Source of the DNA: a virus
DNA length: 22,684 bases
Strand: one strand, 5' to 3'
Virus record (IMG/VR): IMGVR_UViG_3300009507_000138
Span: 1 to 22,684 of that record
Each line of letters starts with the position of its first letter. The first letter of the stretch is position 1. A model generated the notes under the pieces. That model saw only the letters and a list, made by a program, of their open reading frames with translations, ran no database searches and was not told the origin of the DNA. A program made the position numbers and the translations under genes. Below are positions 1,773-22,684 of the stretch, one piece after another.

Positions 1773-1892
1773 ATGGATCCTATTACCCTTAACCTTATTA
1801 TTTGGAGTGCCCTTATAATCTATGTGCCTTACAAAATATATAATTTTATTCACAGTCTTAATCCTTACGACTTTTCTAATAAGTCCAAGTAA
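1773..1892 (+). CDS. Possible 39-residue membrane peptide overlapping the next gene
   Basis: An ATG at 1773 opens a 39-codon frame to TAA at 1890-1892. The product has one hydrophobic stretch (ITLNLIIWSALIIYV, residues about 4-18) and then a polar, basic tail, as in a small single-pass membrane protein. It fills the otherwise unexplained 65-base gap after 1756 and overlaps, in another frame, the signal-peptide codons of the 1822-3663 gene. Only a weak purine-rich stretch (AGAGAAAGAGAA, about 1755-1766) precedes it as a ribosome binding site. It could be a real micro-gene, a leader that couples translation into the next gene, or chance; overlap with conserved coding sequence keeps confidence low. 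Confidence 0.35.
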   Translation: MDPITLNLIIWSALIIYVPYKIYNFIHSLNPYDFSNKSK

Positions 1893-3663
1893 GGCCGAAA
1901 CCTGTACAACCAACGACCTTGGTGACCGTACCTGTACTACAACTACAGCTGGCACAACCACAGGAAACGTCTTAAACAACTCAACTTTTGGAACATCCGG
2001 TTACAGCACACAGGATTGGACAATTTCAGGTGATGTAGGTCAAGGACATAGTACCACATCAGGCACAACTTACACAGGACAAAATACTTCAGGTGGTAAT
2101 CTTGCTTTTGAGGGTGACCCTAAGGGTAGTATCTACCAAGATGTGGATTTGGTTGGCGATGGTCACTTAACAAAATCACAAATCAATGAGGGTTTTACTT
2201 CAACAATGTCAGCAGACATTTGGTTTTGGAATAATACAGAAAATACAACAACTCTTAAACAAACTATCACAGCCGGTGATGGTACGGTAACTACACAAAT
2301 AAGAAACATAAACGACCACGACCCAAATAGGGCAGGTAATGGTGGTCAATGGAATAACTACACAGATAGTTATACTCACAATACAAATACACAAACAGAT
2401 TTTACAATTAGAGCTGAAGTCTCCAATGACACAGCTGGTACAGGTAATGATGGTGCCCATAGGGGACCAGATGTAGATAATGTTCAGTTATCTATTACAA
2501 CTGCTGGTGTTCAATCATCAACATTTACACCTTGTGAAAAATTAGGTACTTGTACAAGCGCTGGTGAGGCTGTTAATGACGCAGTTAATTTAACAACAGA
2601 TGATGGTGTGGATTTATTTACAGATTTAGATACAAAAGTTGAAGACGCATTTAAAGAAGTAGAAAAGATGGAAGATGTAAAAGTAGAAGAAATAAAATTT
2701 GAAACAGTTTTAGTAGAAGATGATTTAGGTAAAATAGAAGAAGTAGAATTTAAAGAGTTTGTTGAAATGCAATTTACATCTTTTATAGAAGAAAATAATT
2801 TAGTAGAAGAATTTAAAACTGAATTAAAAGTAGAAGGTATAAATGAAGAAGAATTTTTTGATGAACTTGGTGACACTATGATGGAAGAAATTGAAACTGA
2901 AATGATGGCTGAATTAGATATGAAAGAACCTGAAATGTTGGAAGAACCAAAAGTAGAAGAAATCAAAGAGGAGGAATTAAGTGAGCCTGAATTGAAAGAA
3001 GAAATAAAAGAAGAAGAAATAAAACAAGAAGAAGTCAAAGAAGAATCAATTAACGAAGAATCTAATAAAGAGGAATCAAATGAATCTACGGAACCTGACA
3101 CCAATACAAATGAGGAAATTAAAGAAGAGTCTAATGAAACAACTGAGAAACCAGAGGATAGTGAATCTGTATCTAATGAATCTGAGGTGGCTGAAGATAA
3201 GGAAACAGAAGGAACGAAGGAAGAGGAAACTGATGGTGAAAATGTGGAAGATGAGGCAGTTGAATCTGATGAGGCTGAGACTGGAGAAATCAAGGTTAGT
3301 AGCATAAACGAAAAAGTACAAAGAGTTTTAAATAAAGTATTATCTAAATTAAAGAGAGTTGACCAAAAGTTACAGGCGATACAGATGGTCACATCACAAG
3401 GTATAACAGCTGGCGAGGCGGACTTGTCAGGATATATAAATAAGCGTATCTATACTAAACAAGTGGCATTAAACGGTGTACCAAATCCTGACTTCTTTCA
3501 AAATCTAAATATTTTGGAACAGCAACAAATATACAAGGACGCCAATTTAGCTGCGTATGTAAGTAATGATCCAATTGCTGTCAAACAAAAGCTCTTGCAA
3601 GAGATAAATGTGGACAAACAGAGATTATTACTAGAACTAAAGGCATTAAAAAATGAAGGATAA
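1822..3663 (+). CDS. Large exported protein: beta-rich N-terminal region, long acidic middle, helical C-terminus
   Basis: This 613-residue protein begins with a signal peptide (hydrophobic 5-20, likely cut near SKA at residue 25). After a short Cys pair (C28, C38) and a Thr-rich stretch, residues about 48-228 alternate polar and aromatic residues (NNSTFGTSGYSTQDWTISG, SIYQDVDL, ADIWFWNN, FTIRAEV, VDNVQLSI) in a pattern resembling jelly-roll, carbohydrate-binding-type domains; this fold is inferred. Residues about 262-495 are overwhelmingly Glu with Lys, Val and Ile, many in EE-x-K repeats. Residues about 500-613 turn basic and helical, with a coiled-coil start and a Tyr/Asn-rich section (GYINKRIYTKQ, NDPIAVKQKLL). 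A weak GGAG at 1802-1805 is the only candidate ribosome binding site. Glycan binding on the virion or host surface is possible but unproven. Confidence 0.8.
   Translation: MCLTKYIILFTVLILTTFLISPSKAETCTTNDLGDRTCTTTTAGTTTGNVLNNSTFGTSGYSTQDWTISGDVGQGHSTTSGTTYTGQNTSGGNLAFEGDPKGSIYQDVDLVGDGHLTKSQINEGFTSTMSADIWFWNNTENTTTLKQTITAGDGTVTTQIRNINDHDPNRAGNGGQWNNYTDSYTHNTNTQTDFTIRAEVSNDTAGTGNDGAHRGPDVDNVQLSITTAGVQSSTFTPCEKLGTCTSAGEAVNDAVNLTTDDGVDLFTDLDTKVEDAFKEVEKMEDVKVEEIKFETVLVEDDLGKIEEVEFKEFVEMQFTSFIEENNLVEEFKTELKVEGINEEEFFDELGDTMMEEIETEMMAELDMKEPEMLEEPKVEEIKEEELSEPELKEEIKEEEIKQEEVKEESINEESNKEESNESTEPDTNTNEEIKEESNETTEKPEDSESVSNESEVAEDKETEGTKEEETDGENVEDEAVESDEAETGEIKVSSINEKVQRVLNKVLSKLKRVDQKLQAIQMVTSQGITAGEADLSGYINKRIYTKQVALNGVPNPDFFQNLNILEQQQIYKDANLAAYVSNDPIAVKQKLLQEINVDKQRLLLELKALKNEG
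2941..3290 (+). repeat. Purine-rich degenerate repeat encoding the glutamate tract
   Basis: This stretch of the 1822-3663 gene is built from degenerate GAA/AAA/GAG-rich units, for example GAAGAAATAAAAGAAGAAG around 2998-3018, which encode EE-x-K-type repeats. The coding strand is almost pure purine over long runs. Such tracts can expand or contract by slippage, so length variation between relatives is likely. The long open frame on the opposite strand here is a by-product of this composition. Confidence 0.6.
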
Positions 3664-10297: not shown

Positions 10298-10997
10298 TAA
10301 AAGACTTTACGATTATTATGCTCATAAATTTATTGAGACATATAATTGGCCATTTGATCTATATGTTTACCACGAGGGTTGGCATCCAGCAAAAGAGGGT
10401 ATCTTCTTTAGAGACATACACAAATACAATCCAGAATTACAAGAGTTTATTGATAGAAACTCACCAAAAAATGTAGATAGTCAATATGAAAAACATAAAG
10501 AAACTACAACAGACTATAAGATGGACGCTATACGATTTGCCTATAAGATATTTGCTAAGACACACTTAATGCTTGATTGTGATTATGACTATGTGTTTTG
10601 GGCTGACGCTGATATTATATTTAAGAAAACCATAACAGAGAAAGAAGTAATAAGAAAGTTTTTACCAGAGGGCTGTGCTGTCTCATTTATAGATAGACCA
10701 AGTTATTATAGTGAATGTGGTTTTGTAGGTTATAATTTAAAGGAACCCATTACAAAAAGTTTTATATATAATTTAAGAAGACACTATACAAAAGATTTGC
10801 TATTCAAAGAAAGAGAATGGCACGATAGTTATGTTTGGGATTGTGTAAGAAAAAAATATCTACACGGTATTAGAACACATAATCTAGCACCAACTATTGA
10901 TAAGGTTGGTAATCCTTGGCCTGACACATATATGGCTGAGTATTGTGACCACTTAAAAGGTAAAAGAAGAAAAGACGCAGGAGTGATGTTAAGATGA
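10269..10997 (+). CDS. Glycosyltransferase, GT-A-like, DAD motif
   Basis: This 242-residue protein has the look of a nucleotide-sugar-dependent glycosyltransferase. It begins with a hydrophobic first strand (MKIALVTTFN) and has FWADADIIF with D113-A-D115 as the expected metal- and nucleotide-binding DxD motif, followed by conserved-looking Cys, Gly and aromatic residues (SECGFVGYN) and an acidic acceptor-side section. The start is TTG at 10269, preceded by a GAGGG-type site and placed exactly at the usual start of the fold. It overlaps the nuclease gene by 29 bases and opens the glycan module. Donor and acceptor are unknown. Confidence 0.75.
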   Translation: MKIALVTTFNKRLYDYYAHKFIETYNWPFDLYVYHEGWHPAKEGIFFRDIHKYNPELQEFIDRNSPKNVDSQYEKHKETTTDYKMDAIRFAYKIFAKTHLMLDCDYDYVFWADADIIFKKTITEKEVIRKFLPEGCAVSFIDRPSYYSECGFVGYNLKEPITKSFIYNLRRHYTKDLLFKEREWHDSYVWDCVRKKYLHGIRTHNLAPTIDKVGNPWPDTYMAEYCDHLKGKRRKDAGVMLR

Positions 10998-11365
10998 GCA
11001 ATAAAGCAGGCAAGATATGGGGTCAAACGGAAATGATTCACAAAAATGGAGTTTTAGAATTTCATAGAGTTGAATATAAAAAAAATGTAGCGTGTTCTAA
11101 ACACAGACATAAATTTAAATGGAATGGATTTTATGTTGAATCAGGAAAGATGATGATTAGAGTATGGCAACAAGGTAAACAATCAGGTTTAATAGATGAA
11201 ACAATATTAAATGCTGGCGATTTTACTACCGTTAAACCAGGATTATTCCACGAGTTTATAGGTATGGAAGATGGTGTAGCATTTGAATTATATTGGGCAG
11301 AATTTGACCACAATGACATAGAAAGAGAAAGTCAAGGTCATTTAGTAAATGAGGGGATTAAATAA
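10994..11365 (+). CDS. Single-domain cupin protein
   Basis: This 123-residue protein is one cupin beta-barrel. Motif 1 is visible as H37-R-H39, E49 and SG at 50-51 (KHRHKFKWNGFYVESG), and motif 2 as PGLFHEF with H86, so the usual 3-His/1-Glu metal site is complete. Cupins of this size in glycan clusters include sugar-phosphate isomerase-like and dTDP-ketohexose isomerase-like enzymes (FdtA/QdtA). The HRH wording does not clearly match the latter, so a sugar-modifying role is only inferred from context. Start and stop are coupled to both neighbours (ATGA at 10994-10997 and TAATG at 11363-11367). Confidence 0.8.
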   Translation: MSNKAGKIWGQTEMIHKNGVLEFHRVEYKKNVACSKHRHKFKWNGFYVESGKMMIRVWQQGKQSGLIDETILNAGDFTTVKPGLFHEFIGMEDGVAFELYWAEFDHNDIERESQGHLVNEGIK

Positions 11366-11637: not shown

Positions 11638-12308
11638 TGATTAGAATATTTGTAGGATATGATAACAATGAAAAGGTGGCCTTTAGCACACTATCACATA
11701 GTTTATTAAAACACTCTACACAACCTATTTCTATAACACCAATTAGATTAGAAAATATAAAAGACATATTTGTTAGAGAAAGATTAAAGATACAATCTAC
11801 CGAGTTTGCCTTTAGTAGGTTTCTCGTACCTTATCTTTGTAATTATTCTGGCCACGCCATCTTTATGGATTGTGATATGTTATCGAGAGCTAATATTGCT
11901 GAACTATGGCGATTAAGAACTACAAAATATGCCGTACAATGTGTACAGCACGATTACACACCTACTAGCACAATTAAATTTATGAATCAACCACAAACAC
12001 CATATCCTAAAAAGAACTGGTCTAGTATGATGATATTTAATAATGCTAAGTGTACAGCATTATCACCCGATTATGTGAATAGTGCCACAGGTTTAGAACT
12101 ACATCAATTTAAATGGCTAGAGAGTGAAAACTTAATTGGTAATTTAGGTGTAGAATGGAATCATTTAGTTGGTGAATATGAGTATAATGAGAATGCTAAG
12201 TTAGTACATTATACAGAGGGCGGCCCTTATTTTGAAAAATATAAAGATTGTCACTATGCTGACGAATGGTTTGATACCTTTAAAGAATCAACTCAAATAG
12301 GTTTATAA
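11637..12308 (+). CDS. Glycosyltransferase, GT-A-like (GT8-type), DCD motif
   Basis: This 223-residue protein starts with IRIFVGYDNNE, a first strand plus nucleotide-binding loop as in GT8-type enzymes. FMDCDML contains the DxD pair D78 and D80 for metal and nucleotide-sugar binding. Later, NWSSMMIFNN and NLGVEWNHLVGEY fit the conserved substrate-side segments, and VHYTEGGPYF resembles the terminal H-x(n)-G-x-x-K/P-type loop of the group. Such enzymes transfer hexoses in lipopolysaccharide core or glycan synthesis. The gene is TAATG-coupled at both ends. It is not closely similar to the 10269-10997 protein except in overall plan. Confidence 0.8.
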   Translation: MIRIFVGYDNNEKVAFSTLSHSLLKHSTQPISITPIRLENIKDIFVRERLKIQSTEFAFSRFLVPYLCNYSGHAIFMDCDMLSRANIAELWRLRTTKYAVQCVQHDYTPTSTIKFMNQPQTPYPKKNWSSMMIFNNAKCTALSPDYVNSATGLELHQFKWLESENLIGNLGVEWNHLVGEYEYNENAKLVHYTEGGPYFEKYKDCHYADEWFDTFKESTQIGL

Positions 12309-13276
12309 TGAATACGATAGGCGTTTATACACAAACAACCACAGCGGCTGGTTATAAAGCAGATTTAGTTAAGGCTTTTGCTAAAGGTGTTGGTCAAGTA
12401 GCTAATGATAATTGGCGAGCAGAATTAGTACCAGAAAGTGAAGTTAAGAACGGATACTCTCACGTATTTTGTTTTAATTATCAAAGAACATATCCTAAAA
12501 AAGAAGCAAGAGTTGGTTTAACTTTAAGAAAAAGACTTATAGAAAGATATGAACCAGCAGGTAAGATATGGTACTTTGATAGTAACGTTTTAAACTCTTA
12601 TGAAAAAGTTAGACAACACTTACACAACTCATTTGTTAGAATTGCTTACGGTAAAGTTTTTCCTAATGAAACAAATTATTTTAATGATAATCCTAAACCT
12701 AATAAATGGGAATATATGAGAAACACCTGTGGTATAGATGTAAGACCATATACAAAAACAGGTAAAAAAATTTATATATGTTGTAATAGAGGGACTGGTG
12801 GTTATTCAGGCCACGGTGTAAACGCTGCTGATTGGGCTATAGAGACAGCAAAGACATTAAGAAAATATACAGATAGATATATTGTTGTAAGAACTCATAG
12901 TGGTATGGGTCACCCTACAGCTGAAGAAGATATTAAAAAATTATACTCAGCAAAGAACGATATAAAAGATTTTGATATACACTCTCCTAGAAACAACTAC
13001 CCCAATTTAATTGATGAGGTAAGAGATAGTTATGCTGTTGTGGTGTTTACATCATCATCTGGAGCGCCAGCAATTATAGAGGGTAAGGCATTGTTTGTAA
13101 CTCACCCGACAGGTTATCTAACACCTATGAGCGCTGGTAAATTAGAAGATATAGAAAACCCTAATTACGATTTAGACAGAGATAAATTTCTACACGGCCT
13201 TGGCGAAAGTCATTGGACTTTAGCACAAATAGAAAAGGGCGATTACTTTAGAAAATTTTTAGAAAGGCAAAAATGA
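12308..13276 (+). CDS. Glycosyltransferase-like protein, GT-B type, paralogue of the next gene
   Basis: This 322-residue protein has no DxD motif. Its C-terminal half (residues about 155-322) has a first strand (KKIYICCNRGTGG), a charged RTHSG loop and TSSSGAPAIIEGKALFV at about 248-264. The last resembles the Ser/Thr-x-Ser-x-x-x-Ala/Glu-x-x-x-Gly loop that binds nucleotide sugar in GT-B enzymes of capsule synthesis (KpsS/KpsC or Kdo-transferase-like). The next protein shares this plan segment by segment, down to DIENPNY versus NIDNPKY, so the two arose by duplication. The junctions are TAATG upstream and ATGA downstream. Function as a glycan transferase is inferred. Confidence 0.65.
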   Translation: MNTIGVYTQTTTAAGYKADLVKAFAKGVGQVANDNWRAELVPESEVKNGYSHVFCFNYQRTYPKKEARVGLTLRKRLIERYEPAGKIWYFDSNVLNSYEKVRQHLHNSFVRIAYGKVFPNETNYFNDNPKPNKWEYMRNTCGIDVRPYTKTGKKIYICCNRGTGGYSGHGVNAADWAIETAKTLRKYTDRYIVVRTHSGMGHPTAEEDIKKLYSAKNDIKDFDIHSPRNNYPNLIDEVRDSYAVVVFTSSSGAPAIIEGKALFVTHPTGYLTPMSAGKLEDIENPNYDLDRDKFLHGLGESHWTLAQIEKGDYFRKFLERQK

Positions 13277-14262
13277 TTAGAGCAGTAGATTGGGCAACCG
13301 ATAAAGCAGACGAAAGAGAAAGAAAAGGTAAAAATAGAACAGACCCTTACATAGCCGCTTGTGCTCAAGGTATAACTGATTGTGAATACGTTAGAACTGA
13401 AAGACTAGATTTAGATAATGATAAATCGCCTTGTATTTTTAGAGGTCTTGGTAAATCACCACTTATTCATAAATGCATAGAAAAAGGCATAGACTTTTAT
13501 TATATTGACACAGGTTATTTTGGTAACTTTGGTACTAAAAAGTGGCATAGAATTTCTAAAAATAATTTACAAACTTTAAATCATATAGGTGGAAAAGAAA
13601 TTTATAAAACACTATTTGGTCTTACATATGGTGTAAAATATAAGAACGATCCTACAAAATCAATGCCTAGGACCTTTCATCACAAAGAACAACACATCTT
13701 TGATGATAGATTTGATAGAATGGGTTTAGGTTTAAGAACAAATCAAATATACACTAGACGAGCAAGATCAAACAGAATATTACTAGTGCCACCTAGTCAA
13801 AAAGTATTTAATCATTTTGGTGGTGACGCTGGTGAATGGACTGAAAGATTTTTAAAAGAGTCAAAAAAATACACAAACAGAGAGATTGTATTAAGACCAA
13901 AAGCAAGTAGAAGTGACAGACAATCCTTTTCTTTACAAGATCAATTAATAAAAGAAGAATTTGATTCACTAATTACTTTTAATAGTATTGCTTCGTTAGA
14001 GGCAATAGTAAAAGGTTTTCCTGCTACAACTTTAGGGCCTAACGCTGGAGCCTATTTGTCTAATACAGATATTAAAAACATAGACAATCCAAAATATCCT
14101 AAAGAAGGACATATAATAGAACATATGTTTTACCTATCATTATGTCAATTTACATCCGAAGAAATGGCAAGTGGTTGGGCATTTAAAGTAATTAATCAAT
14201 TACAAGGTGGCCAAAAACCTAATAACTTTAAACTAGGACCTCATAAAGCAACATTATATTAA
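13273..14262 (+). CDS. Glycosyltransferase-like protein, GT-B type, paralogue of the previous gene
   Basis: This 329-residue protein shows a C-terminal half (residues about 165-329) like that of its neighbour: RILLVPPSQ as a first strand, KKYTNREIVLRPKAS matching RKYTDRYIVVRTHSG, then FNSIASLEAIVKGFPATTL at about 236-254. N237, S238 and E243 in the last segment resemble the donor-binding loop of capsule glycosyltransferases. NIDNPKY and a helical C-terminus follow. The N-terminal half differs more, as expected if acceptors differ. Both junctions are overlapping (ATGA and TAATG). Transferase activity and sugar specificity are inferred, not shown. Confidence 0.68.
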   Translation: MIRAVDWATDKADERERKGKNRTDPYIAACAQGITDCEYVRTERLDLDNDKSPCIFRGLGKSPLIHKCIEKGIDFYYIDTGYFGNFGTKKWHRISKNNLQTLNHIGGKEIYKTLFGLTYGVKYKNDPTKSMPRTFHHKEQHIFDDRFDRMGLGLRTNQIYTRRARSNRILLVPPSQKVFNHFGGDAGEWTERFLKESKKYTNREIVLRPKASRSDRQSFSLQDQLIKEEFDSLITFNSIASLEAIVKGFPATTLGPNAGAYLSNTDIKNIDNPKYPKEGHIIEHMFYLSLCQFTSEEMASGWAFKVINQLQGGQKPNNFKLGPHKATLY

Positions 14263-15245
14263 TGAATATAAAATTTTTATTACCAAAGGCCAGAGCCTTC
14301 CTTGAAAAAGGTAAAATACCTAAAAGAGCCTCACAAAGATTTAGAGGTTTAATACCGTTACAACATATGTTACCAACAGATGGTTTTATTGATAAAGTTG
14401 AAGAGGCTAATAAAGATGATTTAGTAATTATGTCAAAGTCAATTGGCGTAAAAGATTTTTTATATTTAAAAGAAAAAGGTATTAAGTTTGTATTTGACAT
14501 ATGCGATAACAAGTGGCGATTAGGTAAAGACTCTATTGAAAATACAAAAATAATGGATACTGGTTGTAAACACGCTAACTTAATTACAACCACTTGTAAA
14601 GAGTTAAGAGCAAAGATATTTGAAGAATCAGGTAAGACAGCTATAATCATAGACGACCCTTTTGAAAGAGGCATTGAAGAACCTAGATTTAAACCAGACC
14701 TAAAAAATTTAAATTTTTGTTATTTTGGTGGTCGTAAAAGTTTTTCGTTAGTGGATTGGGAAGAAACCATAGCTATTTTAGACTTTGTTTGTAAAAAACT
14801 AGGAGCAAATTACACACTAAATTGTATGACACAAAAACATCTACAAGTTTCGGAAGAACTAACTCATCATTACCACCCTAAAGGCCGTTTAAAAATGTAT
14901 GAATGGGATTACGAACTACAAAAAGAAATGGTAAGAAAAAGTGACTTTGTATTAATACCTATACCTGTTGATGGTTTCTCACCGGTGATTGCTTTTAAAA
15001 GCCCTAATAGAGTTATAGATAGTATAGCACAAGGTAGATATGTTATAACTACTAGGGGTGTAACTAGTTATAGAAATTATATAGATTTTATAGGCTGGGG
15101 CTCTATACAAAATAGTATTAAGTGGGCAATAAACAATCCTAAATCAGTTTTGAATAAAATAAAACAAGGCCAAAAACATATAATGAAACATCACTTACCA
15201 GAAGTAATAGCAAAACAATGGATGAGTTTGAGGAAAAAGATATGA
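14262..15245 (+). CDS. Glycosyltransferase, GT-B (GT4-like)
   Basis: This 327-residue protein has an N-terminal half with KFVFDICDNKW (about 75-85) and a NLITTTCKEL strand. The C-terminal half starts with LNFCYFGGRKS (about 150-160) and ends with FVLIPIPVDG and SPNRVIDSIAQGRYVITT (from residue 247). The last is the SPNR-x-x-D/E-x-x-x-x-G-x-x-V pattern seen at the nucleotide-sugar site of GT4-like enzymes. There is no membrane segment, so it should work in the cytoplasm on a sugar or lipid-linked acceptor. It is coupled upstream by TAATG and downstream by ATGA at 15242-15245. Confidence 0.75.
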   Translation: MNIKFLLPKARAFLEKGKIPKRASQRFRGLIPLQHMLPTDGFIDKVEEANKDDLVIMSKSIGVKDFLYLKEKGIKFVFDICDNKWRLGKDSIENTKIMDTGCKHANLITTTCKELRAKIFEESGKTAIIIDDPFERGIEEPRFKPDLKNLNFCYFGGRKSFSLVDWEETIAILDFVCKKLGANYTLNCMTQKHLQVSEELTHHYHPKGRLKMYEWDYELQKEMVRKSDFVLIPIPVDGFSPVIAFKSPNRVIDSIAQGRYVITTRGVTSYRNYIDFIGWGSIQNSIKWAINNPKSVLNKIKQGQKHIMKHHLPEVIAKQWMSLRKKI

Positions 15246-16294
15246 AAATATTTGATGATGTAAAAAAAAGAATACTATTAACAGGTGGTGCTGGATTTAT
15301 AGCACACCACACAATTAGACATTTACTACAAAATACAGATTGGGAAATTGTATCGTTAGATAGATTAGATTATTCTGGTAATTTAAATAGAATTTCTGAT
15401 ATGATGAAAGAGTTTGATAAAGAAACACAAAAAAGAGTTAGAATAGTTTACCACGATTTAAGAGCTGAGGTAAATGAAATGTTGACTGCTGACCTTGGTA
15501 AGTTTGATTATATTGTACATATGGCTGCCTCATCACACGTAGATAGATCAATAGAAGACCCTATGACATTTGTATTAGATAACGTTGTAGCTACTTGTAA
15601 TATATTAAACTTTGGCCGTAAACAAGAAAACTTGGATAGATTTATTTACTTTTCAACAGATGAAGTATTTGGCCCAGCACCAAAAGGTGTAAACTATAAA
15701 GAAAGAGATAGATACAACTCAACTAATCCATACTCTGCTACAAAGGCAGGTGGTGAGGAGTTGTGTGTTGCTTTTGAAAATACTTATGATATGCCAATCT
15801 ATATTACCCATACAATGAATGTATTTGGTGAAAGACAACATCCAGAAAAATTTATACCAATGACAATCAAAAATGTTAGAGATGGTAATTTGGTCACTAT
15901 TCATAGTGATAAAGATAAAAAAATACCAGGTAGCAGACACTACATACACGCTAAAGATGTGGCTGATGGTATGTTATTTTTATTAAAAAATCAGGATAAA
16001 ATTAGTGGTTTAGATAAAGATTACGGTGGTGCTAAGTGTCCTAAATTTAATTTAGTAGGTCCTGTTGAATGGGATAATTTAGTGTTAGCACAAAAGATTT
16101 CTATGGCACAAAACAAAGAATTAAAATATGAAATGGTGGACTTTCATACTAGTAGACCCGGCCACGATTTAAGATATGCTTTAGATGGTTCATTTATGAA
16201 AGAGTTAGGTTGGGAACCAAAAGTTTCTATTGAAGAAAGAATAAGTCAGGTTGTAAATTGGACTTTAAATAATGACAGGTGGTTAAAATCTTAA
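15242..16294 (+). CDS. rmlB-like: NDP-glucose 4,6-dehydratase, RmlB-like
   Basis: This extended short-chain dehydrogenase should convert a dTDP- or other NDP-hexose to its 4-keto-6-deoxy form, the entry to most deoxy and amino sugars. From the ATG at 15242 (350 residues) the marks are TGGAGFIA (residues 14-21) for NAD, DYSGNL, AASSHVDRSIEDP, STDEVFG with T139-D140-E141, Y164-x-x-x-K168 (YSATK), FGERQHPEKFIP and SRPGHDLRYA, all close to RmlB. The ATG at 15242 is preferred over 15218 because it forms an ATGA overlap with the upstream stop and has GAGG upstream. No rmlC or rmlD homologue is visible nearby, so rhamnose is not the obvious product. Confidence 0.9.
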   Translation: MKIFDDVKKRILLTGGAGFIAHHTIRHLLQNTDWEIVSLDRLDYSGNLNRISDMMKEFDKETQKRVRIVYHDLRAEVNEMLTADLGKFDYIVHMAASSHVDRSIEDPMTFVLDNVVATCNILNFGRKQENLDRFIYFSTDEVFGPAPKGVNYKERDRYNSTNPYSATKAGGEELCVAFENTYDMPIYITHTMNVFGERQHPEKFIPMTIKNVRDGNLVTIHSDKDKKIPGSRHYIHAKDVADGMLFLLKNQDKISGLDKDYGGAKCPKFNLVGPVEWDNLVLAQKISMAQNKELKYEMVDFHTSRPGHDLRYALDGSFMKELGWEPKVSIEERISQVVNWTLNNDRWLKS

Positions 16295-16950
16295 TGAAAA
16301 AATTTAACGAACTATTTAAAGAACACACAGGCGAGAGTATATTAAAGTGGTCTAATTATGGCGACATATATGATAAACACTTTGCTCCGTTTAGAGACCA
16401 GCCAATAAACATACTAGAGATAGGTGTATTAAAAGGCGGCTCAATGAGATTGTGGGAAAAATATTTTCCAAAGGCTAATATTTTTGGCATAGACATAGAT
16501 GAAGAATGTTTACAATATCAATCAGATAGAACAAAAATATTCATAGGTGATCAAGGTGATGTATCTTTTTTAAGAAACGTTAAGGCAAAAGTACCTAGAA
16601 TTGACATACTAATAGATGATGGTAGTCATAGAGCAAAAGATCAAAAGACTACCTTTGATGAAATGTATTACCACGTTAGAAAACCTGGTGTATATCTTAT
16701 AGAAGATATAGAATTAAATTATTGGCCTAGTAAAGACAAAGATAAACCTGATAATTTTATGACATATATGAAAAACAAAATTGATGAAATGAACGTAAGA
16801 AGAACTATGAGCCGTAAAATTTCAGAATCATATCCGTTCAAAGACACCGAAGTTAGATTTAATAACTCAACAAATAGTATTTCTTTTTATGAAAACGTGG
16901 TTGTATTAGAAAAACAAGAAATGCCAAAGGCTAAGGAAATTAAAAGATGA
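16294..16950 (+). CDS. SAM-dependent methyltransferase, class I
   Basis: From the ATG at 16294, which shares bases with the upstream stop (TAATG), the protein has 218 residues. The SAM site is visible as LEIGVLKGGS (41-50), with the acidic ribose-binding GIDID at 65-69 and LIDDGSH at 106-112. IGVLKGGS with DDGSH is typical of the group that includes sugar O-methyltransferases of the TylF/ElmMI and cephalosporin-hydroxylase-like type, where the Asp pair and His bind metal. A role in O-methylating a sugar of the phage-encoded glycan fits the context. An in-frame GTG at 16279 would add five residues but breaks the coupling pattern. Confidence 0.82.
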   Translation: MKKFNELFKEHTGESILKWSNYGDIYDKHFAPFRDQPINILEIGVLKGGSMRLWEKYFPKANIFGIDIDEECLQYQSDRTKIFIGDQGDVSFLRNVKAKVPRIDILIDDGSHRAKDQKTTFDEMYYHVRKPGVYLIEDIELNYWPSKDKDKPDNFMTYMKNKIDEMNVRRTMSRKISESYPFKDTEVRFNNSTNSISFYENVVVLEKQEMPKAKEIKR

Positions 16951-17579
16951 AACAAGTAAAAGGGTGGTGGCTACCAGATACAGACACAGATTTTGATAGA
17001 TGGATTTTAGATGGTGAATATCAAAAGAAACAAAGAGACGCTATACTAGAGTTTGTAAATAAAGATGGTAATGCCATTGACATAGGCGCTCACGTTGGCT
17101 TTTGGTTAAGAGATATGTGTAAACAATTTAAACACGTTTATGCCTTTGAACCCATAGAAGAAGTCAGACAATGTTTAGCAAAAAATGTTATTGCTGAAAA
17201 TTACTCAACATATTCTGTTGGTCTAGGTGCTAAGAATGATAATATAAAAGTAAATTATAATCCAGCAGAAACAGGTAATACACACGCTTCAAAAGACGGT
17301 AATCAAACCATAACAATTAGAAAACTAGATGATATGAATTTACCAAAGATAGATTACATTAAGGTAGATACAGAGGGTTTTGAAATAGAAGTATTAAAAG
17401 GTGGTGAGAAAATGATAGAAGAATATAAACCTTTTGTACACGTAGAAGTAAAAGGTAAAGTTTTAGTAAAACAAGGTCTATCTAGTGATGATGTTGATGA
17501 ATATTTAAAATCAATAAATTACAAAGAGGTGTTTAGAATTAGTAGTGAAAGGGTATATGCACATAGTAATAGCAGGTAA
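16947..17579 (+). CDS. FkbM-family methyltransferase
   Basis: This 210-residue protein matches the FkbM family of SAM-dependent O-methyltransferases. It has AIDIGAHVGFW (about 43-53) for SAM binding, YAFEP (65-69), and IDYIKVDTEGFEIEVLKGG (about 135-153), the family hallmark. FkbM members methylate hydroxyls on polyketides and, often in glycan clusters, on sugars. It overlaps the preceding methyltransferase by ATGA and the next gene by 23 bases. Two different methyltransferases in a row suggest two methylated positions or two sugars, or capping of the glycan end; this is inference. Confidence 0.88.
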   Translation: MKQVKGWWLPDTDTDFDRWILDGEYQKKQRDAILEFVNKDGNAIDIGAHVGFWLRDMCKQFKHVYAFEPIEEVRQCLAKNVIAENYSTYSVGLGAKNDNIKVNYNPAETGNTHASKDGNQTITIRKLDDMNLPKIDYIKVDTEGFEIEVLKGGEKMIEEYKPFVHVEVKGKVLVKQGLSSDDVDEYLKSINYKEVFRISSERVYAHSNSR

Positions 17580-18303
17580 AAACAAATGTGCTATTGAAGC
17601 ACATAAGTATTTGAGAAACAAATATCCTAAACACAAAATTATAGGTGTTGCTAATTCAGATGATGATGTAAATGATGGTTGGCAGCCCTCTTTTAAAAAG
17701 TATCTATTAAAGAATAGATATACAGAATATAGATTAAACGATTGTTATGATTTAGAAGATATGATATTTTTTTCTGTTGAGTTTGATCAGATTATTAAAA
17801 CAGAAAATTTTAAGTCAAAGAAACTTTTTAATTTACATTTTAGTTTACTACCAAAGTATAGAGGTTGTCATACTAATTTTGTTCAACTATACAATGGTGA
17901 GAGATATAGTGGTGTAACTTTACACGAAATAGATAATAGTATTGATGGTGGACCTATTATATCACAAATGAAATTTAAGATTAGAATAAATCATACAGCA
18001 CAAGAGAACTATGTTAGACTTATGAATACTGCTGTCAAACTATTTAAATGTAAGATAGAAAATGTTATAGATAATAATTATAAGTCTAAACCACAAGATG
18101 AAAAACTAGCTGGTAAATATTATGATAGAGAAAGTGTTGACTATAAATCACTTAAAAGTATGGTTGTTGAGCCTAAAGATTTAGATACACATAACAAATT
18201 GAGAGCTTTGATATTTCCTGCCTTTCAATATCCTATTGTAAATGGCAAAGAAGTAAAACGAAGTCTATATAAGAATGGTAAGTTTATATGCGAATATGTT
18301 TAA
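17557..18303 (+). CDS. Sugar N-formyltransferase-like protein
   Basis: The protein belongs to the formyltransferase fold shared by methionyl-tRNA formyltransferase and dTDP-amino-sugar N-formyltransferases such as VioF, QdtF and WlaRD. The catalytic set is N92-x-H94 (NLHFSLLPKYRG) and D130 (SIDGGP), with the usual 38-residue Asn-Asp spacing, and G-V-T-L-H in between. It uses N10-formyl-tetrahydrofolate. Here the neighbouring aminotransferase makes an amino-sugar substrate likely. I start at ATG 17557 (248 residues; MHIVIAG), since GTG at 17545 only adds MKGY. It overlaps both neighbours (23 and 16 bases). Methionyl-tRNA formylation is less likely given the context and the size. Confidence 0.85.
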   Translation: MHIVIAGKNKCAIEAHKYLRNKYPKHKIIGVANSDDDVNDGWQPSFKKYLLKNRYTEYRLNDCYDLEDMIFFSVEFDQIIKTENFKSKKLFNLHFSLLPKYRGCHTNFVQLYNGERYSGVTLHEIDNSIDGGPIISQMKFKIRINHTAQENYVRLMNTAVKLFKCKIENVIDNNYKSKPQDEKLAGKYYDRESVDYKSLKSMVVEPKDLDTHNKLRALIFPAFQYPIVNGKEVKRSLYKNGKFICEYV

Positions 18304-19199
18304 TAGGTTATGGTTATTGGGGTAAGAATTTAGCCAGAGTTTTTGGTAAAGATTTAGTTGCTATATGTGATAACAACCAAGAGAATTTAGACAAAGCAAA
18401 AGAACTTTATGATGTTCAATATTTTTCTAGTAAAGATGAACTATATCAAAGTAATTTAGAATATGATACCGTTGCTATTGCTACAAAAGCAGATACACAT
18501 TTTGAATTAGCAACCACATTTCTAATAGCAGGTAAGAATATATGGTTAGAAAAACCTGCTTGTATTAAAACAAAAGATATTGAATACTTAATAAAGATAA
18601 GAAAAGATAATAAAGTATTTGTAGACCACACATTTGTTTACCACCCAGCAATACAAAAAATTAAATCATTAGATATTGGCACACCATTATATTACGATAG
18701 TCATAGAATTAGTTTAGGTTTATTTCAAAAAGATGTTGACGCTATACTAGATTTAGCAATACACGATTTATCTATATTAGATTATTTGTATCCAGACCTA
18801 GTGTTAGATAAAAAAAGTATTATAAAGAACAATCATATAAACGACAAAGCAAATCAATCAATATTAAATTTAAAATTTACAAATAATTTTACTGCTACCA
18901 TTAATGTAAATTGGGTAAGTCCTGTAAAGAAAAGAGAAATCATATTAGCAGGCTCAAATTCATCTATTATATTTGATGATATATCGGTAGAAAAAGTAAA
19001 AGTATATAACACAGGCGAGTTAGGTGATGACTATAATGTTAATTCTGTTAAAGGTTATACAAACATAGAAATACCTGATATGATAGAACCATTAGCTCAA
19101 GGCTATGAAGAATTTAAAAATAGTGTAAAAGAAGACAGGCAACCATTAACATCATTAGAAAGATCATTAAAGATACAAAGTTGGGTAAATCAATGGTAA
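18288..19199 (+). CDS. GFO/IDH/MocA-family oxidoreductase
   Basis: This 303-residue protein has a Rossmann start (ICLIGYGYWGKN, GxGxxG), the family EKP motif at 88-90 (LEKPAC), and LAIHDLSILDYL with H159 as the usual active-site histidine region. Members oxidise or reduce sugar hydroxyls with NAD(P), for example at C3 in the UDP-sugar WlbA/WbpB and dTDP-sugar KijD10 enzymes. Next to a C3-type aminotransferase, a C3 dehydrogenase or ketoreductase is a sensible guess. The ATG at 18288 overlaps the formyltransferase gene by 16 bases and gives the expected first strand. The stop overlaps the aminotransferase start by seven bases. Confidence 0.87.
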   Translation: MRICLIGYGYWGKNLARVFGKDLVAICDNNQENLDKAKELYDVQYFSSKDELYQSNLEYDTVAIATKADTHFELATTFLIAGKNIWLEKPACIKTKDIEYLIKIRKDNKVFVDHTFVYHPAIQKIKSLDIGTPLYYDSHRISLGLFQKDVDAILDLAIHDLSILDYLYPDLVLDKKSIIKNNHINDKANQSILNLKFTNNFTATINVNWVSPVKKREIILAGSNSSIIFDDISVEKVKVYNTGELGDDYNVNSVKGYTNIEIPDMIEPLAQGYEEFKNSVKEDRQPLTSLERSLKIQSWVNQW

Positions 19200-20236
19200 A
19201 ATATTATGATATGACATCAATTACTGAGCAAGTAAAAGATATGACTAGGCTTGAACTAGATACAATAATGAACAGCAATAACTATATTTACGATACAAAA
19301 GACTTTGAAGAAAGATTTAGGCAGTTTACAGGTGCTGGTTATTGTGTAGGTGTATCTAGTGGCACAGCTGCCTTACACTTAGCATTAAAGGCAATAGGCA
19401 TTAAACCAGGTGACCAAGTTGCCACGGTATCTCATACATTTAGAGCCACAGCGGCTGCTATAAAATATGTTGGTGCTGAACCTGTTTATGTTGACATAGA
19501 GCAACTTTCTTATTGTATGGATCCAGATGAGTTAGAAAATACATTAGAAAATAATCCTACTATAAAAGCAGTTATAGTTGTTCACTTATATGGTAATTCA
19601 GCAATGATAGAAAAGATTGCTGAGATGTGTAAGAAAAGAAATGTAAAACTAATAGAGGACTGTTCACAGGCACACGGTACTCGTAGAGTTAATAAACACG
19701 TGGGTACTTTTGGTGACATAGGAACTTTTAGTTTTTTCCCAGGCAAAGGCATAGGTGCTTTTGGTGACGCTGGTGCTTGTATTACTATGAATAAAGAATA
19801 CAATGATTATATCTCTGAAGCAAGAAGTTGGAAAGAAGATGAGATAGGTTATAATTATAGAATGTCAACAATTAATGGTAGATTTTTATATCATAAGATT
19901 GATAATTTTAAAAAAGTATTAGAAGAAAAAACATTAATTGCTAAAGAATATGACAGGCACTTTCGTAATTGTTCAGTAAGAGGTCAAGTAACACATAGTT
20001 ACCACATTTACCCTATACTACACAAACATAGAGATAAACTTATTTCGTATGCTAAAGAAAAAGGCGTAGAATTAAAATGTCATTATACTTTACCTGTACA
20101 CAAACTACCTGCTTATAAAACAGATAAGTATTCACTACCTGTTACAGATTTAATATCATCACAGCAGGTAAGTTTACCAATTTATCCTGGCGTGGATTAT
20201 AAAAAAGTTATTGAGGTAGTAAAAGAATTAATATGA
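19193..20236 (+). CDS. DegT/DnrJ/EryC1-type PLP sugar aminotransferase
   Basis: This 347-residue enzyme should transfer an amino group from glutamate to a keto sugar nucleotide. Family marks are GVSSGTAALHLAL, the PLP-binding D156 and Q159 in EDCSQAHG, and the Schiff-base Lys K185 in FSFFPGKGIGAFGDAGA. The PGK-x-x-GA-x-GDAGA wording is that of the C3 type (QdtB, FdtB, DesV, WbpE), not the GNK-x-x-x-x-GEGG of the C4 type (PerA, ArnB). The ATG at 19193 (MVKYYDM) overlaps the upstream stop by seven bases; an in-frame TTG at 19181 is less likely. The downstream junction is ATGA. Confidence 0.92.
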   Translation: MVKYYDMTSITEQVKDMTRLELDTIMNSNNYIYDTKDFEERFRQFTGAGYCVGVSSGTAALHLALKAIGIKPGDQVATVSHTFRATAAAIKYVGAEPVYVDIEQLSYCMDPDELENTLENNPTIKAVIVVHLYGNSAMIEKIAEMCKKRNVKLIEDCSQAHGTRRVNKHVGTFGDIGTFSFFPGKGIGAFGDAGACITMNKEYNDYISEARSWKEDEIGYNYRMSTINGRFLYHKIDNFKKVLEEKTLIAKEYDRHFRNCSVRGQVTHSYHIYPILHKHRDKLISYAKEKGVELKCHYTLPVHKLPAYKTDKYSLPVTDLISSQQVSLPIYPGVDYKKVIEVVKELI

Positions 20237-20517
20237 CATATCAACCATTACCAGACGAATTATATATTAGAAGAAGTACCATAGAGGGTATGGGTTTATT
20301 TGCTAAAACAGATATTGATGGTAATATTAATTTAGGTATGACCCATATAATTGTTAAAGGTGAAATTATAAGAACACCATTAGGAGGTTTTATAAATCAT
20401 AGTGATGAACCTAATTGTATAAAAATTAAAGAGGGAGATAGGTATAGTTTATTTACCTTGCGTGATATAAAAGCGGAAGAAGAAATAACATTGAAATATA
20501 CTTTTTATAAAATATGA
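20233..20517 (+). CDS. Minimal SET-domain protein (putative lysine methyltransferase)
   Basis: The 94-residue product is almost entirely a SET domain: EGMGLFAKTDI (18-28) is the first G-x-G segment, FINHSDEPNC (53-62) the N-H-S-x-x-x-N SAM-binding core, and TLRDIKAEEEITLKYTF (75-91) the final strand with the conserved Glu and Tyr. SET proteins methylate protein lysines. At 94 residues it is smaller than the viral vSET of chlorella virus PBCV-1 (about 120) and has only about 30 residues between the first and second motifs. It is ATGA-coupled at both ends to sugar enzymes. The target is unknown: a host protein, a phage protein or a glycan enzyme are all possible. Confidence 0.82.
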   Translation: MTYQPLPDELYIRRSTIEGMGLFAKTDIDGNINLGMTHIIVKGEIIRTPLGGFINHSDEPNCIKIKEGDRYSLFTLRDIKAEEEITLKYTFYKI

Positions 20518-21374
20518 TTAATTTTATACCATTTTTTAAAAGAAAAGATTTTAATGACGGCATTGAAGAACCTGAAGAAGTAAAACACTTCAATAGTTTT
20601 GGTGAAGGCTATGATTATTATTTAGATAGTTATAGGACATCTATGGGTTGGTATCATACAAGAGACCAGGCAAAGTTTTCTGTAGCGAGTGATGAGATTA
20701 CAGAGATAATGCCAGAGAGTGGTAGACCTTTTGATATGATAAGAGTAAAAGGTTTAAAAGATAAAAATATAATTGAGTCAAAAACTTTAGCAGAGACATA
20801 TGTATTTAATGAGGCAGACATAGATGGCACAATTGTATCAAGTGGTTGTGACCATTTAATTAATGGTAATTTTAACAAATGGGTTGATGATAATGATTTT
20901 GATATTGCGATACCATTAAGAAGAAAATCCAGAGTGAACAATGCTCTAATAATACAAAAGAAAAGAACTAAAAATACTATTGACTTTTTTAATTATAGAC
21001 TAGAAAAGTTTTACGAACTTAAAAAAGAAAATAGAGCTTGGTATGGCGACCAGAAAAGTTATGAAAGTTTATTTTTAGAAAAAGGTATACTAACTAAAGG
21101 TGTTAAAGGCTCTGGTAAACTTGGTGTACATAACATAATGGGTTGTAAAGTTTTAATTATACCTTATGGTGGTGATGTAGTAGGTACAAATATTGATGAT
21201 GTTTATGGTCATTATTTTTTTCCTAACGCTTTGTTTTTTGATTACAAAGGCGATAGAAAAAGAAAATATAAAATAGGGCTTGAAAGAGCAAGAGCTAAGT
21301 TTAGAGAGAATAAAGATCAATTTGCTAACAATGATGACTTCATCAATTTCAATAGTAAAAATACCAATGAATGA
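20514..21374 (+). CDS. Putative glycosyltransferase-like protein (GT-A-like)
   Basis: This 286-residue protein resembles nucleotide-diphospho-sugar transferase folds: an early strand with KFSVASDEITEIM, then IVSSGCDHLINGNFNKW with D113 where a DxD-like acidic site is expected, FDIAIPLRRKS, NNALIIQKK and WYGDQKSYESLF with D179-Q180. This series, including the late D-Q pair, is common in GT-A enzymes, but the usual DxD is not present as such. The C-terminus (KLGVHNIMGCKVLIIPYGG, YGHYFFPNALFFDYKG) appears well ordered. ATGA couples it to the SET gene. Assignment is moderate; an inactive transferase or another sugar enzyme is possible. Confidence 0.6.
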   Translation: MINFIPFFKRKDFNDGIEEPEEVKHFNSFGEGYDYYLDSYRTSMGWYHTRDQAKFSVASDEITEIMPESGRPFDMIRVKGLKDKNIIESKTLAETYVFNEADIDGTIVSSGCDHLINGNFNKWVDDNDFDIAIPLRRKSRVNNALIIQKKRTKNTIDFFNYRLEKFYELKKENRAWYGDQKSYESLFLEKGILTKGVKGSGKLGVHNIMGCKVLIIPYGGDVVGTNIDDVYGHYFFPNALFFDYKGDRKRKYKIGLERARAKFRENKDQFANNDDFINFNSKNTNE

Positions 21375-22113
21375 ACACACTATTAAAGAGTTAAAAGGTT
21401 TTTCTGGTAGTAAAATATATTTAATGAGAAACAATACTGGTTTGTTTATTAGAAAAATGGAAAATGTTGATAGAAACTATATTAAATTAAACGAACTATC
21501 TCAACATTTTAATGTGCCTAAAGTTTACACTTACGGTAACAACGTTTTAGATATGGAATATATACACGGACTAGATATGAAATCTTATTTAGCTGTTAGA
21601 GATACAAAAAGACTTACAGATTTTTTAACAGATACATTATCTAAATTTAGTGATGATGTACAAATGAACGATTATACAAGTGTTTATGTAGATAAACTAA
21701 AATATATAAAACTACCTAGTGAAATAATATTTACTAAAGAACAATTATTAGAAAAGTTACCTAAAAGATTACCTAGATCAAAATACTTTGGTGATCTAAC
21801 ACTAGAAAATATAATATATGGTGAAGATGGTCAGTTTTATTTTATAGATGGTATGACAAGTGAATATGATTCATATATATTTGATATAGCTAAGTTAAGA
21901 CAAGATTTAGAATGTAAATGGTTTTTAAGAGACACTAAATTATTATTAGATGTTAAAGTAGAAAATATACAGGATAAATTATTAGAAAAGTTTGAACTAG
22001 CAAATAATAATTATATACTAATATTAATGTTATTAAGAGTTTATAGATATACAAAACCATTTAGTAAAGAAGAGGCATTATTAATAAAAGAAATGAATAG
22101 ACTATGGAAATAA
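21331..22113 (+). CDS. APH/choline-kinase-like phosphotransferase
   Basis: From the ATG at 21331 the protein has 260 residues with the aminoglycoside-phosphotransferase/choline-kinase fold. A GFSGSKIYLM segment stands for the nucleotide loop, YFGDLTLENII holds the catalytic-loop D155 and N160, and FYFIDGM holds the metal-binding D173, followed by YIFDIAKLRQDLE. The usual H of HGD is replaced by F (FGDLTLEN). Start codons at 21331, 21334 and 21367 are all possible, with no clear ribosome site; 21331 preserves the first strand before the loop. The overlap with the upstream gene is 44 bases. It probably phosphorylates a sugar or small alcohol that the next enzyme then activates. Confidence 0.75.
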   Translation: MMTSSISIVKIPMNEHTIKELKGFSGSKIYLMRNNTGLFIRKMENVDRNYIKLNELSQHFNVPKVYTYGNNVLDMEYIHGLDMKSYLAVRDTKRLTDFLTDTLSKFSDDVQMNDYTSVYVDKLKYIKLPSEIIFTKEQLLEKLPKRLPRSKYFGDLTLENIIYGEDGQFYFIDGMTSEYDSYIFDIAKLRQDLECKWFLRDTKLLLDVKVENIQDKLLEKFELANNNYILILMLLRVYRYTKPFSKEEALLIKEMNRLWK

Positions 22114-22684
22114 TTTTACCAGCGGCTGGATTATCAACTAGATTTCCTAATATGAGACCAAAATTTACCTTAACTGATTACAAGGGTATGATGATGTTTG
22201 AGAGGGCAATACAATACTACATTGGCAAATACAACGTTACAATAGGAATATTAAAAGAACACGACACAAAATATAATATATCAACATACATAAAAAATAC
22301 ATATGATAAGCTTGTCAATGTAGTTGTACTGGACGAACTCACAACAGGACCTGCTCATACGGTATATGAAATACTAAAGAGGGCCAACATATCAGACGAT
22401 AACGAATTTTTTATAAAAGATTGTGATAGTTTCTTTGATCACATACCAACAGAGGGTAATTATGTTTGTGTATCAAGTATTACTGAACACGAAGTATTAA
22501 AGAGATTGTCTAGTAAATCATTTGTTATATCAAACGACCAAGGTATCATAAACGGTATCATAGAAAAGAAAGTGGTGTCAGATAAGTTTTGTGTAGGTGG
22601 TTATAAGTTTGATAACGTAGGTTTATACAAACGAACATATGAAAAATTACAAAGTAAAAATGTAAAAGAAATATTTGTATCTCA
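22104..22684 (+). CDS. Sugar (or phospho-alcohol) nucleotidyltransferase, partial at right edge
   Basis: The ATG at 22104 overlaps the kinase gene by 10 bases, and the frame stays open for 193 residues to the window edge. The start is the signature of the NTP-transferase family: LPAAGLSTRFPNMRPK (5-20), with R13 and K20 binding the triphosphate. TTGPAHTVYEI (80-90) is the sugar- and base-side loop, and KDCDSFF with D106 and D108 gives the metal site. The family includes RmlA, HddC-like and LicC-like enzymes that make dTDP-, GDP- or CDP-activated compounds; which one cannot be told. The TTGPAHT loop is not a clear RmlA match. It could provide the donor for the RmlB-like path or a separate CDP-linked group. 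Confidence 0.8.
   Translation, partial: MEIILPAAGLSTRFPNMRPKFTLTDYKGMMMFERAIQYYIGKYNVTIGILKEHDTKYNISTYIKNTYDKLVNVVVLDELTTGPAHTVYEILKRANISDDNEFFIKDCDSFFDHIPTEGNYVCVSSITEHEVLKRLSSKSFVISNDQGIINGIIEKKVVSDKFCVGGYKFDNVGLYKRTYEKLQSKNVKEIFVS

Follow-up and report, generated by a model that had tools for sequence, protein, structure and literature searches.

The window, by which we mean the whole analysed stretch of 22,684 nucleotides, belongs to a T4-like marine phage with a compact, swappable gene cassette, which very likely makes and attaches an unusual formyl-bearing sugar, probably after C3 oxidation of a common cellular sugar, and with a separate neighbouring module. The T4-like character is seen in its primase/RNR/RuvC neighbourhood, and among isolates Pelagibacter phage Mosig has the nearest primase (71.5%). 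A sequence-only reading of this DNA had named five genes, encoding an RmlB-like dehydratase, a formyltransferase (FT), a Gfo/Idh/MocA dehydrogenase (GFO), a DegT aminotransferase and a nucleotidyltransferase, as one overlapping gene chain; their positions were right, all lie on a single strand in a chain that overlaps or abuts, and family profile or motif matches bear out the enzyme types of all five. Between them also lie two methyltransferases (starting at 16279 and 16947), an ORF resembling SET domains (20233), a GT-A-like protein (20514) and a kinase of APH type with its ATG at 21367, none of which that reading had mentioned. The five named genes are parts of two mosaic modules and not of a single pathway: module A, at 17557-21374, consists of FT, GFO, DegT and the GT-A-like glycosyltransferase, and module B, a second and independent glycan module, comprises RmlB, the methyltransferases, the kinase and the nucleotidyltransferase.

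FT (17557..18303, + strand, as are all features below) is a sugar 3-N-formyltransferase of the WlaRD/QdtF kind. Its likely start is the ATG at 17557, the alternative being a GTG at 17545 (ORF 17545-18303). Pfam PF00551 is matched at 9e-16, and the PDB search returned WlaRD at 5e-52 and 180 bits, with FT residues 6-244 aligned, that is, the full length including the C-terminal part. WlaRD, QdtF and two further sugar formyltransferase entries score 151-180 bits, whereas 4-N sugar (ArnA, VioF, Rv3404c), tRNA or purine formyltransferases reach at most 43. The triad N96-x-H98...D134, noticed earlier in the sequence, is present; it is invariant in all relatives covering the region, and conserved in phage and bacterial kin. 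Alternatively, the phage could have taken up a methionyl-tRNA or GAR formyltransferase to help subdue its host, and FT would stand beside sugar genes by chance, as the Formyl_trans_N domain is generic and the PHROG name of FT is "phosphoribosylglycinamide formyltransferase". However, methionyl-tRNA enzymes score no more than 29 bits and GAR transformylases no more than 43 against the 180 of WlaRD, the WlaRD alignment extends through the C-terminal part, and the FT and GFO genes overlap in all related contigs spanning the join. We regard this explanation as extremely improbable and reject it on the PDB bit scores. The best match is WlaRD and not a methionyl-tRNA formyltransferase, so that the result which would have refuted the sequence-only reading did not appear. 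Its proposal that the phage itself encodes the making of a 3-formamido nucleotide sugar is supported.

The relatives of FT in viral contigs are 82-91% identical to it. No full-length FT was found in annotated phage genomes, and a scan of bacterial species contigs gave no relative; an even sample of 1,093 bacterial genomes from three phyla contained 19 kin with 34-40% identity, so such relatives do occur in bacteria, though rarely. In 18 bacterial loci the relatives usually stand alongside RmlB, an FdtA-like ketoisomerase (13 of the 18) and DegT, and in one bacterial locus (L239) a GFO directly precedes FT. To our knowledge, the characterised enzymes of the WlaRD/QdtF family act on dTDP-3-amino-3,6-dideoxyhexoses. 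Since 21 alignment columns are fixed in the ketoisomerase-linked kin but never so within the phage clade, the substrate of the phage enzymes may differ from theirs. The residue after the catalytic D134 is T in the ketoisomerase-linked kin and G in the phage clade.

GFO (18288..19199) is a putative Gfo/Idh/MocA nucleotide-sugar 3-dehydrogenase for which we propose C3 oxidation. It matches PF01408 in Pfam (2.7e-16), and its first NCBIfam match is NF040723 at 4.5e-32, but with 111.8 bits, far under the cut-off of 450, for which reason we call the protein GnnA-like only. GnnA (UDP-GlcNAc 3-dehydrogenase, 7bvj) is its top PDB match in the sequence search (1.6e-16) as well as in the fold comparison (2.6e-15), and the EKP and DxxxH motifs are invariant in 12 phage sequences; annotated phage genomes contain only two GFOs, both distant. 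The sequence-only reading had left the C3 keto step to either the oxidoreductase or a cupin, and the oxidoreductase is the best assignment. The small cupin (10994..11365; PF07883, 1.4e-6) is conserved in these glycan loci; its family profile found no match in the PDB and no similarity to the bacterial FdtA profile, and on these grounds it was rejected as a 3,4-ketoisomerase of the FdtA/QdtA type. The window contains no homologue of that ketoisomerase.

DegT (19181..20236, ATG at 19193) is a probable PLP-dependent sugar 3-aminotransferase, with a match to PF01041 at 2.5e-86. The PGK lysine predicted earlier is present (K185 from the ATG, K189 from the TTG start) and invariant. Among the best PDB matches are 7n63, QdtB and WbpE, the first two scoring slightly above WbpE, and NtdA follows well below QdtB and WbpE at 2.3e-33; the top NCBIfam models, LegC and PseC, are C4 enzymes, and both matches stay below cut-off. 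In a quick tree with some long branches, as are all our trees, GFO-linked and FdtA-linked enzymes split (support 96), and the window's DegT stands on the GFO side. We describe it as 3-aminotransferase-like and as separate, in that tree, from the ketoisomerase-linked enzymes. Conserved right after DegT is g286 (20514..21374), a predicted GT-A-fold glycosyltransferase whose structure model (pLDDT 79) retrieved GT8, glycogenin and GT6 folds as top Foldseek matches, with a best E of 6e-6 (GT8/glycogenin) and a probability of 1.00 but a TM of only 0.40-0.45; its GxDH and WxGDQ motifs are invariant. We propose that g286 may transfer the new sugar.

Module B opens with the RmlB-like NDP-glucose 4,6-dehydratase (15218..16294), which matches PDB RmlB entries down to 1e-48 and GDP_Man_Dehyd at 2.5e-51, and has the TDE and YxxxK motifs; TIGR01181 is its best family at 236 bits, under the cut-off of 365. 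It is followed by a macrocin-type O-methyltransferase (16279..16950; PDB 3ssm 1.5e-24, 8ia9 6e-18) and an FkbM methyltransferase (16947..17579; TIGR01444, 2e-21), the latter forming the left flank of the cassette in the empty-site alignment described below. The right flank is an APH/RIO-like kinase (21367..22113) with weak APH/RIO1 matches and a GDLTLENI motif. The nucleotidyltransferase domain (22104..22684) is cut by the contig end; it carries the signature PAAGxSxRF...RPK (here PAAGLSTRF and RPK) and matches phrog_3980 at 1.3e-16, while no NTP-transferase match was obtained in Pfam, NCBIfam or the PDB. In relatives the full-length protein is a 341-aa NTP-HAD fusion, of which locus L008 has a full copy.

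Synteny and an empty site demonstrate that the two modules are separable. Relatives of RmlB occur in 401 viral stretches, and among the best 80 of these FT, GFO and DegT accompany it in only 3 and are missing in 77. Window segments 16901-17525 and 21370-22684 are colinear with four viral loci without module A (L147, L153, L161, L162), and in L147 the gap between the two colinear blocks is about 40 bases. Conversely, FT-GFO-DegT-g286 stands without RmlB at the site in L003, and in L007 and L122 a glycosyltransferase gene runs straight into FT, again with no RmlB, an absence that holds for the site only. Because the compared contigs are fragments, RmlB or a ketoisomerase could sit elsewhere in L003-type genomes. 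An adjacent RmlB is also missing in most loci of the wider family. The single five-enzyme pathway of the sequence-only reading is therefore rejected as a unit: RmlB and the nucleotidyltransferase, which both occur in viral contigs without FT, GFO and DegT, are not supported as its steps, and neither is a 6-deoxy product, given the formyl loci without adjacent RmlB.

The cassette represents one version of a module that is widespread among phages, acyltransferase-GFO-DegT-glycosyltransferase, whose acyl slot is usually acetyltransferase-like. DegT lies beside GFO on the same strand for 45 of the 49 distinct viral GFOs, mostly with gene ends overlapping by 1-16 bases, and an acyltransferase is also present in 39 of the 49 loci (hexapeptide 25, formyl 11, LpxA-like 2, GNAT 1). 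This slot is exchangeable and has been swapped repeatedly: the GFO tree requires at least 9 changes of its type, or 6 when formyl is set against all other types, and the window's formyl clade (support 100) is nested in a 26-row, mostly hexapeptide clade (support 99). The LpxA-like enzymes occupy the slot in L055 and L063; LpxA itself acts on UDP-GlcNAc.

On balance we favour the view that the genes at 17557-21374 form a self-contained exchangeable cassette for C3 oxidation, amination and formylation, giving a nucleotide 3-formamido-3-deoxyhexose that is then transferred. We infer the reaction order, the substrate nucleotide, the product and the acceptor as follows. GFO would use NAD+ to oxidise a nucleotide sugar of the host at C3, the reaction that GnnA performs with UDP-GlcNAc; DegT, with PLP as cofactor and an amino acid as donor, would aminate the 3-ketone; FT would formylate the 3-amine from formyl-tetrahydrofolate; and g286 would move the new sugar onto a surface glycan, either the LPS of the host or some structure of the phage. 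Direct C3 oxidation leading to a nucleotide 3-formamido-3-deoxysugar is the likely outcome because the modules are separable, formyl loci without RmlB exist and the cupin is no ketoisomerase. The most likely compound is UDP-2-acetamido-3-formamido-2,3-dideoxyhexose and not a 3,6-dideoxyhexose made via RmlB; formed from UDP-GlcNAc, it would have a neutral mass of about 634 Da by our calculation. The PDB ranking of DegT, the NF040723 score of GFO and the dTDP-3-amino-3,6-dideoxyhexose substrates of the characterised FT family speak against the direct route.

The route of the sequence-only reading, in which RmlB supplies dTDP-4-keto-6-deoxyglucose, the keto group is shifted to C3 by either GFO or the cupin, and DegT and FT produce a dTDP-3-formamido-3,6-dideoxyhexose, draws on RmlB being part of the same chain of genes only 1.3 kb upstream, on the nearest PDB entries of FT and DegT, which are dTDP-3-amino-3,6-dideoxy sugar enzymes, and on the company of the bacterial FT kin. 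However, it would need a ketoisomerase, which the window lacks, and we know of no Gfo enzyme that acts as one; the mutual independence of RmlB and the cassette and the position of DegT in its tree also argue against it, which makes it rather unlikely. A kanosamine-like route would start with C3 oxidation of plain NDP-glucose or glucose 6-phosphate, FT then giving a 3-formamido-3-deoxyglucose derivative. NtdC/NtdA is likewise a Gfo plus DegT arrangement, and NtdA is among the DegT matches, but its low rank there, the action of FT kin on nucleotide sugars and the closeness of GFO to a UDP-GlcNAc enzyme render this route improbable.

The favoured direct C3 oxidation has parts in common with several known systems. 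With the dTDP-Fuc3NFo and dTDP-Qui3NFo pathways (RmlB, FdtA/QdtA, FdtB/QdtB, WlaRD/QdtF/FdtF) the cassette shares the 3-N-formyltransferase family and a DegT 3-aminotransferase, but it has a Gfo/Idh/MocA dehydrogenase in place of the 3,4-ketoisomerase, and its neighbour RmlB sits in a module that can be separated from it. GnnA-GnnB, which converts UDP-GlcNAc to UDP-GlcNAc3N for lipid A in Acidithiobacillus and several Rhizobiales, likewise pairs a Gfo 3-dehydrogenase with a DegT aminotransferase; where that pair is linked with LpxA, the phage-borne pair has an N-formyltransferase and a glycosyltransferase as partners. As in the WbpA-WbpB-WbpE-WbpD/Wlb route to UDP-GlcNAc3NAcA, 3-dehydrogenase, 3-aminotransferase and 3-N-acyltransferase form one unit, but the window's unit would add formyl instead of acetyl and has no 6-dehydrogenase within the window. 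We tentatively suggest, as a possibility short of a firm expectation, that phages possess a plug-in nucleotide-sugar module in which a fixed core (GnnA-like 3-dehydrogenase, 3-aminotransferase and usually a glycosyltransferase) is combined with a 3-N-acyl enzyme that can be exchanged (acetyl, formyl, LpxA-like or GNAT-like), so as to change the acyl group of a surface sugar. In the window's version, elements of two known pathways would be put together to make a nucleotide sugar of the 2-acetamido-3-formamido type.

Pelagimyophages, the phage group of the window, carry LPS-type genes with a proposed role in changing surface glycans (PMC7029224); the part of that paper available to us has no "formyl" and describes neither a cassette nor an acyl-slot swap. 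Viral gnnA, wbpE and wbpD have been reported singly as auxiliary genes proposed to change surface glycans (PMC12783922, PMC13211439), and the accessible parts of these papers deal with single genes, with no cassette, acyl-slot swap or formyl variant described. If our reading is true, marine T4-like phages encode every step towards a rare formylated sugar, whose acyl group they have exchanged in the course of evolution. This would be a compact means to change the host surface during infection, for instance to block other phages, or to decorate the phage itself. The reading also predicts a sugar nucleotide in which three small enzymes join GnnA/Wbp-type C3 oxidation to Fuc3NFo/Qui3NFo-type formylation. 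The sister phage loci have a hexapeptide acyltransferase, for example at L016:7568-7984, and some also have a UDP-sugar 6-dehydrogenase-like gene. The SET-domain-like ORF of 94 aa within the cassette (20233..20517; PF00856, 1.7e-11) is restricted to the window's population and L004.

Our data establish at family level the identities of four genes at window 17557-21374, which encode a formyltransferase (FT), a Gfo/Idh/MocA dehydrogenase (GFO), a DegT aminotransferase and the 286-aa protein g286. The top PDB match of FT is the sugar 3-N-formyltransferase WlaRD (5e-52, residues 6-244), and the six leading chains, WlaRD and QdtF (TDP-3-aminoquinovose N-formyltransferase) among them, score 151-180 bits, while ArnA, VioF, Rv3404c, GAR and Met-tRNA formyltransferases and all other PDB matches stay at or below 43 bits. 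The catalytic N-x-H...D is conserved, and the earlier assignment of FT to the sugar type holds. The best PDB match of GFO is the UDP-GlcNAc 3-dehydrogenase GnnA, by sequence (1.6e-16) and by predicted fold (2.6e-15, from a model of moderate confidence, pLDDT 75); its best NCBIfam model, NF040723, describes the same enzyme, with a score under the cut-off. The best PDB matches of DegT include 7n63, QdtB and WbpE. The AlphaFold model of g286 (pLDDT 79) has its best fold matches among GT8/glycogenin-type GT-A glycosyltransferases, and its gene follows DegT in nearly all nearer-clade relatives. Among the relatives, a 94-aa SET-domain-like ORF inside this cassette (20233-20517) is confined to the population of the window and the related locus L004.

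The sequence-only reading had joined FT, GFO, DegT, an RmlB-like dehydratase and a nucleotidyltransferase into one pathway to a formamido-6-deoxy sugar nucleotide. All five genes are present with the motifs ascribed to them; two methyltransferases, the SET-like ORF, g286 and an APH-like kinase, which it did not list, lie between them. The nucleotidyltransferase is truncated at the contig end; near-identical contigs encode it whole, fused to a HAD domain in a 341-aa protein. The distribution of the genes places RmlB and the nucleotidyltransferase in a module apart from the cassette and argues against their being steps of the same pathway. Among the best 80 of 401 viral stretches with RmlB relatives, FT, GFO, DegT or g286 occurs in only 3, all of the window's own clade. 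Four related loci (L147, L153, L161, L162) have the order RmlB-methyltransferase-FkbM-kinase-nucleotidyltransferase with nothing between FkbM and the kinase; L147 is colinear with window 16901-17525 and 21370-22684, and these blocks are separated by about 40 bases in this empty site versus 3.8 kb in the window. In L003, L007 and L122 a glycosyltransferase-like gene runs straight into FT, without RmlB. The cassette shows clean presence or absence across loci. The kinase and the nucleotidyltransferase-HAD fusion (window 21367-22684; L008:11817-12842 in a near-identical contig) travel with RmlB and the methyltransferases, and likely represent a second pathway, one for an activated headgroup or a sugar.

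Classical 3-formamido-3,6-dideoxy sugars require RmlB and an FdtA/QdtA ketoisomerase. Of 18 loci in bacteria that encode an FT of the WlaRD type, 13 include an FdtA-like gene and one (L239) has a GFO immediately upstream of FT. The window lacks FdtA. A distant small cupin (10994-11365), with invariant HxH and WAEFxH motifs, had been offered as an alternative to the oxidoreductase for the C3 keto step. Its copies in the phage set share 61-81% identity, and it occurs with and without the amino-sugar cassette; it had no match in annotated phage genomes. We abandoned it as a ketoisomerase, since bacterial FdtA profiles show no similarity in either direction and its family profile matched no solved structure. 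FdtA-linked aminotransferases form one clade, apart from the GFO-linked ones, and the window's DegT falls on the GFO side.

The genes of the cassette are modular, and the acyl enzyme encoded just before GFO has been exchanged recurrently. Among FT and GFO relatives collected from viral contigs, FT-GFO-DegT-g286 is complete in L003, L004, L005 and the near-identical L002; the L006 contig begins within FT. More distant phages retain GFO-DegT-g286, preceded by a 139-aa hexapeptide acyltransferase with sugar N-acetyltransferases such as QdtC among its best PDB matches. In L055 (2750-3352) and L063 (5438-6001) an LpxA-like acyltransferase (124-149 bits against LpxA models, under cut-off) lies directly 5' of a GnnA-like dehydrogenase and DegT, which could mean a phage-directed lipid A change or a short-chain 3-N-acyl sugar. 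A GNAT-like protein is encoded nearby in L054, and a short formyltransferase of another lineage occupies the slot in L074, L076, L082, L083, L085 and L086. Of 49 distinct viral GFOs, 45 are accompanied by DegT and 39 by one of these acyl enzyme types. On a tree of 65 GFOs, where the window's clade is nested within a mostly hexapeptide clade, the acyl type changes at least 9 times and formyl versus non-formyl 6 times, counts that are approximate because the trees are quick and some branches long. On the FT tree, too, the short phage formyltransferases branch separately from those of the WlaRD kind. Therefore, formylation entered the module more than once.

GnnA/GnnB oxidize and aminate C3 of UDP-GlcNAc (PMC5644692), and WbpB/WbpE/WbpD do so on UDP-GlcNAcA, followed by 3-N-acetylation (PMC10622841). 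The phage cassette would follow the same logic, ending in a formyl group: adjacency and chemistry suggest that GFO, DegT and FT act in sequence, the substrate may be UDP-GlcNAc or close kin, as the similarity to GnnA and the LpxA-like enzymes in the same slot suggest, and g286 would transfer the product. Passages of PMC12783922 and PMC13211439 report viral gnnA, wbpE and wbpD singly as auxiliary genes; in the open papers searched, we came upon no account of the cassette, of its exchangeable acyl slot or of a formyl variant.

The window, an entire IMG/VR virus record of 22,684 bases, is a fragment and, judged by its primase, class I ribonucleotide reductase and RuvC-like gene, comes from a T4-like phage. 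Among isolates, Pelagibacter phage Mosig has the nearest primase (71.5%). Downstream of RuvC, Mosig carries another complement of genes for glycosyl-, methyl- and sulfotransferases, so the glycan locus is variable. Pelagimyophages are known to have related genes, for which passages of PMC7029224 propose modification of host O-chains. About 2.7 kb beyond the window end, near-identical contigs carry a gene for the KDO-8-phosphate synthase KdsA (L008:15099-15869; L019:6045-6815), whose product exceeds two NCBIfam cut-offs (361 vs 242, 347 vs 314); this suggests, though it does not prove, glycans of an LPS-like type.

Elsewhere in the window, 986-1756 encodes a Ser/Thr/Asn-rich 256-aa protein with a signal-peptide-like N terminus, and 1822-3663 a 613-aa protein with a similar N terminus and a long acidic stretch, for which no family was found. 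Three consecutive proteins of 320-330 aa (12308-15245) are kept in these glycan loci and match no Pfam or PHROG family; the first two both resemble another gene downstream in L008, and all three are possibly uncharacterised glycosyltransferases.
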